Assembly: GCF_946885885.1 (NCBI RefSeq)
Contig: NZ_CAMPHN010000132.1
Coordinates: 1-12,035, forward strand
DNA length: 12,035 nt
From: an uncultured Pseudomonas sp.
GTDB taxonomy: Bacteria > Pseudomonadota > Gammaproteobacteria > Pseudomonadales > Pseudomonadaceae
Direction of reading: 5' to 3'
Every line of letters begins with the position of its first letter. Positions within the stretch are counted from its first letter, which is position 1. The position numbers and the translations under genes are program-made. Shown here piece by piece: positions 29 through 10,960 of this stretch. Under the pieces are notes generated by a model. The model was not told the origin of the DNA. It ran no database searches and worked only from the letters and a program-made list of their open reading frames with translations.

Positions 29-766
29 CTATTGCTCGCCAAGCAGATCCACCGCCCGCAGATGTTCGGCGCCCCATAGCCGCGCAATCTGCGCGGCGCG
101 ACCGAGCGGCACGCGCTGGTTCTCGAAATCCACCACCACGCAGAAGTCGGCATGCCGCGGGCGCTCGGGCAGTTGGCTGAAGCGGCCGTCGCTAAGCAGC
201 CACAGGCCGATTTTTTTGCCTGGCGCGGCCTTGCGCACCTTGGCCAGGGTTTGCTCGGCCAATTGCACCCCACTGACCGCTGGCGAGCCGCCGCCACCGC
301 CGATCGCGGCTATCCAGGCGTCGTTGTAGGCCACGGCCTTTTGCGGGCGTTGCAGTAGGCACGCCTGGTTGCCGGAAAAAGCGATCACCGCGAGTTCTTC
401 ACGCTGCCGGTAGATCTGCTCGCTCCAGCGCAGCAGCAGGCCCTTGGCCATGGCCAGGTTGCTGCGTTTGAGCATCGAGCCTGAGCAGTCAAGCAACAGG
501 CAGTGCAGCAGGCCGCTCTCGCTCGCTTGCCGATGAAAACGCAGGTGCTCCGCCAGCAGCGGCGCGGCCTGCTTGGTGAGCAGGGTGCGCGGCCAATGGA
601 TACGTTGGCTGGCGGCGCTGCCCGTCGCCCGCAAGCGTCCAGCTTGTTTGCCCTTCCCCGCCAGCGGCCCGCTCGCAGGCCGTTGGCTCAGGGCTTTTTT
701 AGCGGCAGCGGCCTCGCCCCGGCCAGGTGCTGAGTCGGCACGGGTTGCGGCGGCATTTCGCCCCAA
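29..766 (-). CDS. chlD: VWA-domain protein, the C-terminal half of a ChlD-like chelatase subunit
   Basis: This is a von Willebrand A domain of the kind found in ChlD/BchD and CobT, the medium subunits that bridge the AAA+ motor to the chelatase. As an independent 245-residue frame it would begin at a TTG (766) with no convincing ribosome binding site. The MIDAS metal site is visible: DCSGS (93-97), a GGGGGSP loop (156-162) where Ser161 stands at the usual Thr position, and LSDG (191-194). The first 55 or so residues are a low-complexity Ala/Gly/Lys linker. The frame overlaps chlI by 79 nt and lies in its -1 frame, so the domain is probably made mainly as a ChlI-VWA fusion of about 559 residues by frameshifting at 700-694. 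It ends the operon. The family assignment is strong, but the start is uncertain and may not be used. Confidence 0.85.
   Translation of the reverse strand: MGRNAAATRADSAPGRGEAAAAKKALSQRPASGPLAGKGKQAGRLRATGSAASQRIHWPRTLLTKQAAPLLAEHLRFHRQASESGLLHCLLLDCSGSMLKRSNLAMAKGLLLRWSEQIYRQREELAVIAFSGNQACLLQRPQKAVAYNDAWIAAIGGGGGSPAVSGVQLAEQTLAKVRKAAPGKKIGLWLLSDGRFSQLPERPRHADFCVVVDFENQRVPLGRAAQIARLWGAEHLRAVDLLGEQ
660..720 (-). other. Predicted programmed -1 ribosomal frameshift signal joining chlI to the VWA frame
   Basis: In the chlI frame the minus strand reads CTA AAA AAG CCC TGA, so the heptamer A_AAA_AAG (700-694) is in the exact zero-frame phase of the classical dnaX-type slippery site, two codons before the stop at 690-688. 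After a 6-nt spacer a stem-loop follows. Bases 687-684 pair with 660-663 and 682-678 with 665-669, with one A-C mismatch (683/664), a T-G wobble (677/670) and loop GCGAGC. A GAGG (715-712) lies 11 nt upstream, like the internal Shine-Dalgarno stimulator of dnaX. A -1 slip continues ...LKK-ALSQ... straight into the VWA frame, giving a 559-residue product. The geometry is read from sequence, and activity is inferred. Confidence 0.8.
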
Positions 767-1707
767 TCGCTGCCGCCATCGTGTGGCTGCTGGTCATTGG
801 CAGCGCTGTTGCCTGGGTTGTCCTGGGCGGACGACTGCGGCACCTGCGGTGGTTTTTTGCGTCTATGCGCCAACACCAGCTCGGCCACCGCCTCGACATC
901 CGCCGCGCCGATTTCGTCCTTCTGCTGCCAGGCGGCGTGGGCGCAAGCAGCGCGCAGCAGCACCAGGTCGGCGCGTACCCCTTCCACCCCGGCGGCATAG
1001 CAGAGCGCGCTGACCTGGCGGTGCAGCGCATCGCCGAACTCCAGGCGGGCGACCCTCGCCCGTGCCTGTTCCAGGCGTTCGCCGAGGCGCTGCTGTTCGT
1101 CGCGTTGCGCCTCGACAAAGCCCGGCGGGTCGCGGTCGAACTGCAGGCGGCTACGCACGATGCGCTCGCGGGTGGCGGCATCGATCTGCTGGCCCAGGCG
1201 CACGAACAAACCGAAGCGATCCAGCAGCTGCGGGCGCAGCTCGCCCTCCTCCGGGTTCATGGTGCCGACCAGGGCGATGCGCGCCGGGTGCTGATGGGAA
1301 ATGCCGTCGCGCTCGATGCGGTTGACCCCGCTGGCGCAGACGTCCAGCAGCAAATCGACCAGGGCATCGGCAAGCAAATTGACCTCGTCGACATAGAGCA
1401 CGCCACCATCGGCGCGGGCCAGCAGGCCGGGTTTGAACTGCACGCTGCCATCCTGCAACGCGGCCTGGATATCCAGCGAGCCGACCAGTTGTTCCTCACT
1501 GCTGCCCAGCGGCAGGTTGACGAAACGCCCGCTCGGCAACAGGTCGGCCAGGGCCCGGGCGCTGGTGGATTTGGCGGTGCCGCGCGGGCCTTCGATCAGC
1601 ACCCCGCCGATCTGCGGGTCGATGGCCGCGAGCAGCAGCGCCAGTTGCAGCTGCGGCTGGCCGTGCACGGCGGAGAACGGAAAATGCGGTCGAATGGTGC
1701 TGTTCAT
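688..1707 (-). CDS. chlI: ChlI-like AAA+ ATPase, small subunit of the CobN-type cobaltochelatase
   Basis: This 339-residue AAA+ ATPase of the magnesium-chelatase ChlI/BchI family would drive cobalt insertion with CobN, in the role CobS plays elsewhere. Walker A is GPRGTAKST (40-48), Walker B is GGVLYVDEVNLL (101-112), and sensor-1/arginine-finger motifs are VGTMNPEEGELRPQLLDRFG (147-166). The C-terminal helical domain ends in HRRKKPP (281-287), followed by a Pro/Gln/Asn-rich linker to residue 335, like the linker that joins the AAA+ and VWA parts of ChlD. The ATG at 1707 is 4 nt after the cobN stop, which fixes the start. The stop is immediately preceded by A_AAA_AAG, so the same reading frame can yield this short protein or, by -1 slippage, the ChlD-like fusion. 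The family call is strong; use for cobalt rather than magnesium is inferred from cobN next to it. Confidence 0.93.
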   Translation of the reverse strand: MNSTIRPHFPFSAVHGQPQLQLALLLAAIDPQIGGVLIEGPRGTAKSTSARALADLLPSGRFVNLPLGSSEEQLVGSLDIQAALQDGSVQFKPGLLARADGGVLYVDEVNLLADALVDLLLDVCASGVNRIERDGISHQHPARIALVGTMNPEEGELRPQLLDRFGLFVRLGQQIDAATRERIVRSRLQFDRDPPGFVEAQRDEQQRLGERLEQARARVARLEFGDALHRQVSALCYAAGVEGVRADLVLLRAACAHAAWQQKDEIGAADVEAVAELVLAHRRKKPPQVPQSSAQDNPGNSAANDQQPHDGGSDWGEMPPQPVPTQHLAGARPLPLKKP

Positions 1708-1711
1708 CGGC

Positions 1712-5491
<3,780 letters not shown>

Positions 5492-10259: not shown

Positions 10260-10458
10260 CGGTCACACTCCAGCCTGGGCCGAATACGGCCATGACGAAT
10301 GCCTCGCGCAAGCGCGACGCTTTAGTGCAACCACGGGGAGCAGGCGCGCGGCGACAAGCCTCGAACCCTGATGACGACTACTGAGGGAAGACCGCCCGAA
10401 ACGCGGGCATGCAACAGCACCGGCAACCACCCACACCCCGGGGTACGCACCTTGTTTC
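10260..10458 (-). other. Leader between the minus-strand riboswitch and cobO, no gene
   Basis: This 199-nt transcribed leader has no credible gene; short frames such as a 10-codon ATG frame and a 15-codon frame overlapping the cobO start lack support. It holds three small GC hairpins: GCCCG/CGGGC near 10392-10407, TCGCG-cttg-CGCGA at 10317-10304 and GGCCG-tatt-CGGCC at 10291-10278. The last sits just ahead of the cobO ribosome binding site (CTGGAG, 10273-10268). No run of four or more T occurs on this strand, so a Rho-independent terminator is not apparent. The expression platform may act on translation or through Rho. Confidence 0.5.
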
Positions 10459-10649
10459 GATCAGGCCGGTCTTCTGGCTCACCTTCATCCGAAGTTCGCG
10501 CCTTCCCGGGCGGAGGCCCAGTGGCTTGTTGCAGACTTCGTCAGGTATACAGCAGCGGGGGCTGCGCCGGAATGCTCGGGGATTACTCCCAGAGGTCACC
10601 GGACTTCCCGTTTCAGCTCCTTCGCGATTGCGCATGGAGGCACCTGTTC
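10459..10649 (-). ncRNA. Cobalamin riboswitch aptamer controlling the cobO-chlD operon
   Basis: Read on the minus strand, this holds the conserved cobalamin aptamer blocks in order: AGGTGCC at the 5' side, GCTGAAACGGGAAGTCCGGTG (core, about 10617-10597), CCGGCGCAGCCCCCGC (about 10570-10555), GCCACTGGG (10525-10517), CGGGAAGG, and the B12-box GAGCCAGAAGACCGGCC (10480-10464). P1 closes by GAACAGG (10649-10643) against CCTGATC (10465-10459), with one mismatch. It binds adenosyl- or other cobalamins and lowers expression of downstream B12 genes. It heads the minus-strand operon starting with cobO. Confidence 0.95.
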
Positions 10650-10659
10650 GTTGGCCGGC

Positions 10660-10688
10660 AGGGTAACCCAGTCGGCACCTTCCGGCAA
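10660..10688 (-). promoter_or_regulatory. Candidate sigma-70 promoter for the cobO operon
   Basis: On the minus strand TTGCCG (10688-10683) is followed after 17 nt by TACCCT (10665-10660), matching 4 of 6 and 3 of 6 consensus positions. A start about 7 nt downstream, near 10653, would place the 5' end just ahead of the riboswitch P1 stem at 10649. The match is weak and rests partly on position. Confidence 0.35.
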
Positions 10689-10698
10689 TTCGCCGCGG

Positions 10699-10728
10699 TT
10701 GACGGAGCCAACACATCATGCTCAGCTA
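10699..10728 (+). promoter_or_regulatory. Candidate promoter for cbtBA
   Basis: TTGACG (10699-10704) is a good -35 element. At 17-18 nt spacing the -10 would be TCAGCT or CAGCTA (10722-10728), which is poor. Initiation would fall near 10734, directly before the plus-strand riboswitch P1 at 10736. The -35 lies only 10 bp from the -35 of the opposite promoter. A weak -10 could mean dependence on an activator, or that the true element is elsewhere. Confidence 0.35.
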
Positions 10729-10735
10729 GCGGCCT

Positions 10736-10938
10736 GTTTCAGGTGTCTCGCGTCATTGCGCGCGAGGTGAAACGGGAAGCCGGTGGGTTCGATCCGCAAG
10801 ATCGAACGAGTCCGGCGCTGCCCCCGCAACGGTAAGCGCACGCAAGGGTCGTCATCGCCACTGTACCAGTAGGTATGGGAAGGCCGACTCTCACTGTCCA
10901 GTCGACAGTCGTCGCAAGCCCGGAGACCGGCCTGGAAC
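10736..10938 (+). ncRNA. Cobalamin riboswitch aptamer controlling cbtBA
   Basis: A second, divergent cobalamin aptamer. P1 pairs GTTTCAGG (10736-10743) with CCTGGAAC (10931-10938), with one G-T wobble. Conserved blocks follow in order: TGAAACGGGAAGCCGGTG (about 10768-10785), CCGGCGCTGCCCCCGC (10812-10827) then AACGGTAAG, GCCACTG (10857-10863), TGGGAAGG (about 10876-10883) and the B12-box AAGCCCGGAGACCGGCC (10916-10932). It precedes the cobalt transporter genes cbtB and cbtA, a known target of this riboswitch class. Confidence 0.96.
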
Positions 10939-10960
10939 TTGTTTGGCAACCCGCGGTGGG

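Follow-up and report, generated by a model that had tools for sequence, protein, structure and literature searches.

In 2020 Antonov reportedly proposed, in Mol Biol Evol, that two cobalt chelatase subunits are made from a single chlD gene by frameshifting. Earlier, 23 'magnesium chelatase' frameshift genes had been listed in six genera, namely Pseudomonas, Burkholderia, Delftia, Herpetosiphon and two archaeal ones (part of Antonov 2013, PMC3711429). In E. coli, three cassettes from that study shifted frame at rates of 63, 40 and 10%; their A runs are of 11, 9 and 7, none being A6G, and the section that describes them omits the genus of origin of each (PMC3711429). A 2016 review gives, in its part on this family, the A_AAA_AAR site and a stem from P. 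protegens (PMC5009743), and part of Kuznetsov 2022 (PMC9227772) restates that both subunits can derive from such a frameshifted chlD gene (fs-chlD). The same review, in its sections on recoding in E. coli, ranks A_AAA_AAG as the most shift-prone among the heptamers compared and describes dnaX, whose zero frame gives the long product and whose -1 frame the short one; reversed dnaX polarity is reported there in a few bacteria (PMC5009743).

The DNA analysed here (the window) is a stretch of 12,035 nt from an uncultured Pseudomonas sp. in which a chlI gene adjoins a frame for a VWA domain. On sequence evidence the two very probably form a single fs-chlD gene, expressed by ribosomal -1 slippage, so that what is annotated as a gene pair can be read as a single gene encoding two proteins. 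The parts of Antonov 2013 and the 2016 review cited above cover Pseudomonas, and the window adds a member to a kind already published. It shares with the family, as the consulted parts of PMC3711429 and PMC9227772 describe it, the gene pair, the -1 direction, the poly-A slippery site, the downstream stem and cobN, as well as the lack of a separate ChlI-family gene in those relatives of the window that were searched. Nothing essential sets it apart; it has a short A6G site and an upstream GAGG that is common to some relatives.

Layout of the chlI-VWA locus

The features of the window are as follows.

29..793, minus strand: -1 frame with linker and VWA domain (MIDAS motif DCSGS); 221 residues after the predicted slip
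660..687, minus strand: putative stimulatory stem-loop, 6 nt 3' of the heptamer, from folding
688..690, minus strand: TGA stop of the zero frame, one codon past the heptamer, read directly
694..700, minus strand: slippery heptamer A_AAA_AAG in zero-frame phase, read directly
712..715, minus strand: SD-like GAGG, 11 nt 5' of the heptamer, its AGG being an in-frame Arg codon
688..1707, minus strand: chlI, a ChlI-type AAA+ ORF in the zero frame with its ATG at 1707-1705; 339 aa, the predicted termination product
1712..5491, minus strand: cobN, large cobaltochelatase subunit, directly 5' of chlI (TIGR02257, 1616 bits, cut-off 822)
10447-10662, minus strand: cobalamin riboswitch upstream of the minus-strand B12 genes
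10724-10949, plus strand: cobalamin riboswitch upstream of the plus-strand CbtA gene

The chlI ORF is backed by Pfam and NCBIfam matches and by ChlI/BchI relatives in the PDB, and Walker A (GPRGTAKST) and Walker B (VLYVDE) motifs are visible in its translation. On the minus strand its 3' end reads CCG CTA AAA AAG CCC TGA in the zero frame. The heptamer's first A falls on the third position of a codon, which gives it the phase of an X_XXY_YYZ site. The heptamer, its phase, the TGA one codon on and the GAGG 11 nt upstream were all found where a reading of the sequence alone had put them.

The -1 frame is open from 793 to a stop at 31-29. Its VWA half scores 26.9 bits against Pfam VWA_2, just below the cut-off of 27, and 71.9 bits against TIGR02442 (putative cobaltochelatase), a single profile that matches both halves. 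Recomputing the predicted slip product gave the expected 338 + 221 = 559 aa, next to 339 aa for the terminated form; it is related to TIGR02442 and scores 467.4 bits, under the curated cut-off of 779.45. The AAA+ and VWA halves of one ChlD sit in adjacent frames, as in fs-chlD. The further claim that such a pair would normally be annotated as two unrelated genes does not always hold for the VWA half, since a number of JGI or NCBI records carry the name 'magnesium chelatase subunit ChlD-like protein'.

The window also encodes CobW, DUF1636, BtuR/CobO and CbtA, which together with the riboswitches place the locus in a B12 cluster. The two riboswitches stand divergently.

In E. coli dnaX the SD-like element lies about 10 nt upstream of the slip site and the stem about 6 nt downstream. 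With A_AAA_AAG, an SD-like GAGG and a stem at about these spacings, the window has a cassette of the dnaX type, and like dnaX tau/gamma it would give long and short products with a common N-terminal part from one gene. The name 'dnaX-like' proposed for it therefore holds for the cassette and fails for the polarity: the -1 product is short in E. coli dnaX and long in the window.

The mechanism may be pictured as follows. Ribosomes that stay in frame would decode CTA AAA AAG CCC TGA and release the 339-aa ChlI-like AAA+ subunit. A fraction would be slowed by the downstream stem-loop, and probably also by pairing of the anti-SD to the upstream GAGG; their lysine tRNAs would slip from AAA-AAG into the -1 frame, and translation would run on through the VWA domain to give the 559-aa ChlD. 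From the layout, the conservation, the conserved stem and the related genomes without another ChlI-family gene, all of them observed directly, we infer slippage in this organism, its efficiency and the need for both products.

Conservation of the heptamer and its surroundings

Relatives were fetched with ChlI peptide patterns that excluded the slippery site, and the best 80 of 583 confirmed matches were compared. Loss of the heptamer or stem from relatives that keep both domains had been named as the finding that would speak against frameshifting. It was looked for, and of these best 80 of 583 loci 79 combine a -1 VWA domain with A_AAA_AAR in phase; the lone exception is an in-frame fusion in Marinomonas gallaica. 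A_AAA_AAG accounts for 57 of the 79 sites and A_AAA_AAA for 22, and the distance from the first heptamer base to the stop is 10 nt in 78 and 7 nt in one. Codon choice points the same way. The 58 A6G sequences (the window together with those from the best 80 of 583) have AAA in 58/58 and AAG in 58/58 at the two lysines, columns that rank 2 and 7 of 176 conserved columns for codon conservation, whereas another conserved lysine column in the same sequences is split into 19 AAA and 39 AAG. Both lysines are AAA in 22/22 of the A7 sequences from that set, ranking 10 and 11 of 169.

Could the heptamer be there by chance? AAAAAAG occurs twice on the minus strand of the window, and an in-phase A_AAA_AAR fell within the last 34 chlI codons in 1.6% of 5000 synonymous shuffles. 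The conservation in 79 of the best 80 of 583 loci is decisive here, and a chance origin is rejected; heptamer, phase and -1 VWA frame are confirmed as real. We also considered whether the locus is an in-frame chlD fusion that has decayed or was sequenced wrongly. Genes that join these two domains in frame do occur, but both halves are open in the window and the same frame relation and heptamer recur in 79 of 80 assemblies (best 80 of 583), so this explanation has next to no probability. Sequencing error and pseudogene were rejected on that same conservation.

The downstream structure needs the relatives to carry it. Folding of the window gives 11 pairs (10 Watson-Crick, 1 G-U) flanking one A.C mismatch; the start 6 nt downstream and the single mismatch were as first described, and the count of nine Watson-Crick pairs was one short. 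At -20.4 kcal/mol (z -1.8) the stem is unremarkable by itself, because the DNA is GC-rich and 14/200 shuffles fold equally well. Across the best 80 of 583 loci, the 60 nt downstream have a mean fold z of -3.0, with 67/80 below -1 and 56/80 below -2. An equivalent stem is kept in 44 aligned Pseudomonas loci (37 distinct): its 14 pairs are formed in 97.9% of cells, against 96.5 in shuffles and 41-52% in slid versions. Double changes occur at three pairs (15 cells), although 13 of the 15 are in one pair and may reflect few events, and the number of further pair types is not above shuffles (51/500). The window's own stem differs in sequence from this one and is common to the window and P. benzenivorans. 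Weak in the window alone and clear across relatives, the structure is a putative stimulator of slippage.

The SD-like element is more restricted. AGG makes up 1.7% of the Arg codons in these genes, yet among the window and 79 relatives from the best 80 of 583 it stands 11 nt from the heptamer in 13/80, namely the window itself and 12 of the relatives, which are P. benzenivorans, Stutzerimonas, three Zoogloeaceae, five Caballeronia and two Candidatus Paraburkholderia; the full GAGG of the window is common to P. benzenivorans, Stutzerimonas, the three Zoogloeaceae and some of the Caballeronia/Candidatus Paraburkholderia loci. GAAG is found at 13 nt upstream in 28/80 and GAGG at 13 nt in 6/80, and 31/80 have none of the six SD-like motifs scanned at 5-16 nt (best 80 of 583), so the element is lineage-specific.

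A rival explanation is RNA polymerase slippage on the A run, yielding mixed mRNAs that are each translated normally. The run is a homopolymer, and a few relatives have longer ones: nine A's in two split genes related to that of M. gallaica (L138, L139) and ten in a gene from the class-wide survey described below (L144), lengths at which RNA polymerase slippage could contribute. The window has six A's only, the part of the 2016 review on this subject discusses slippage on runs of 9 (PMC5009743), and a kept RNA stem with an SD-like AGG is a better fit to slippage by ribosomes; we regard the transcriptional route as extremely unlikely for the window. In L138, L139 and L144 the A run is followed by G and the window's polarity is kept.

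Is the VWA protein perhaps translated by itself, either from its own start or by coupling near the chlI stop, for example from a TTG at 634? The -1 frame of the window was said to lack a good start, and this proved correct: before the MIDAS motif it has only TTGs, at 766, 634 and 496, and the 20 nt before each are free of GGAG, GAGG, AGGA and AAGG. Eight of the nine closest homologs are nevertheless catalogued at 201 aa, the length expected from TTG 634. Among the best 80 of 583 loci, start codons recur at +132 (33/80) and at -63 (18/80), and in 20/80 the -1 frame offers an ATG or GTG, accompanied by an SD-like motif, ahead of the MIDAS motif, nine of them at -63. But no position is common to even half of the 80, ATG is absent before the MIDAS motif in 57/80, and 21/80 have a -1 stop less than 30 nt upstream of the heptamer (best 80 of 583), which confines the frame change to the region of the site. 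Two overlapping genes would moreover leave unexplained why 79 of the best 80 of 583 have A_AAA_AAR in phase, as well as the lysine codon bias and the kept stem. Given the starts and SD-like motifs in some relatives, independent or coupled initiation is disfavoured rather than dismissed, and we judge it very unlikely. A single gene giving ChlI and ChlD by frameshifting is supported by the conservation of heptamer, phase, VWA frame and stem, and the 201-aa entries then mean that catalogues either miss the medium subunit of the cobalt chelatase or list it too short.

The genomic setting agrees with this reading in most respects. TIGR02030 (ChlI) has one matching gene only in 52/52 related genomes, P. 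benzenivorans included, at E 1e-10, and CobN (TIGR02257) is above cut-off in 24/24 genomes searched. Counting against frameshifting are weak extra ORF matches to TIGR02030 (at most 32.8 bits) in six of 12 genomes searched at E 1e-5, and strong CobT-like genes in 4/52 genomes; weak CobT-like genes are present in 2/52. A tree built from 74 AAA+ domains puts the window in one clade with P. benzenivorans, Stutzerimonas and Zoogloeaceae (96/85), in a wider branch that also takes in Burkholderiales (100/99). The fluorescens/putida Pseudomonas group is separate (100/99), and because of this grouping the window's chlD may have been laterally transferred.

In-frame chlD genes around Marinomonas

The exception in M. 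gallaica (L052) is an in-frame fusion of 581 aa in a genome with no second ChlI-family gene, and it carries the candidate slip segment CCGGGAAAG. Of 56 related genomes, 38 have the gene: 35 copies are in-frame, two are split (L138 and L139, with the window's polarity) and one is broken. In 30 of the 35 in-frame genes (L102-L135, L137) the linker holds one in-phase G_GGA_AAG, soon followed by a stop in the -1 frame, and the predicted short products are of 329-392 aa. GGGAAAG is the phage lambda G-T slip site.

We think it likely that chlD polarity is flipped in this group: the zero frame would give ChlD, and slippage at an independent G_GGA_AAG a ChlI-like protein. The fused protein is homologous to that of the window, and the genomes searched have CobN and a single ChlI-family gene; the difference is that here the zero frame is the long one, and the short ChlI would arise by slippage at G_GGA_AAG and termination soon afterwards in the -1 frame. 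Outside the linker these genes have no G_GGA_AAG with an early -1 stop, and synonymous shuffles gave 0.43 linker sites on average, with no round of the 200 exceeding two. The sites occupy four columns of the alignment (22, 5, 2 and 1 genes) and lie before the conserved W/F-G linker motif in seven genes and after it in 23, so the site moved at least once and, by the alignment, up to three times. At the main site the codons CCG, GGA and AAG are invariant (22/22 genes for each), ranking 2, 1 and 4 of 312 conserved columns, with a Glu codon that is GAG in 22/22 (rank 12 of 312), and GGA makes up 13% of the Gly codons in these chlD genes; as the genes are related, 22/22 does not stand for 22 independent events. 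An SD-like GAGGT lies within 15 nt upstream of G_GGA_AAG in 21/30.

A downstream hairpin was taken from the fold of one gene (L120), with pairs chosen by hand and two of 12 dropped before the count, these two being paired in only 9/22 and 5/22 genes. The remaining 10 pairs are formed in 84.3% of cells, against 29-55% when slid. None of 500 shuffles attains its covariation score, whereas 122/500 reach its number of doubly changed pairs. The hairpin being modestly supported, the case for flipped polarity is made by the heptamer and the codons. Of the five in-frame genes without G_GGA_AAG, L131 and L137 carry A_AAA_AAA in phase, the -1 frame closing 7-8 codons later, and L132, L133 and L135 have no convincing slip site.

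The site persists in each of its positions, and selection appears to maintain the two-product output rather than a particular site or polarity. If this is true, the same two-product output reached by opposite polarity, another heptamer and a moved site would be evidence from nature for a need of both subunits. It would also offer a testable explanation for the lack of a small-subunit gene in genomes that have cobN and a fused chlD. We found no report of flipped chlD polarity in the literature searched, and the phenomenon may be new.

Distribution in a class-wide survey

A survey of 369 genomes of the class, in which at most three candidates per genome were scored, found a match in 21. The window's polarity recurs in L144, L145 and L147-L149. 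In the fusions L140-L142, L146, L150 and L152-L154 the linker is free of X_XXY_YYZ heptamers. Four of these (L140, L141, L142 and L150, in genomes G431, G259, G345 and G361) are in genomes that also have no second ChlI-family gene, and in view of such cases a pair of separate products may not be essential everywhere. One of the four genomes, G361, carries a CobT gene. L143 is a fusion with a late frame break, L151 is AT-rich and full of heptamers, and a further six (L155-L160) are plain ChlI-like genes.
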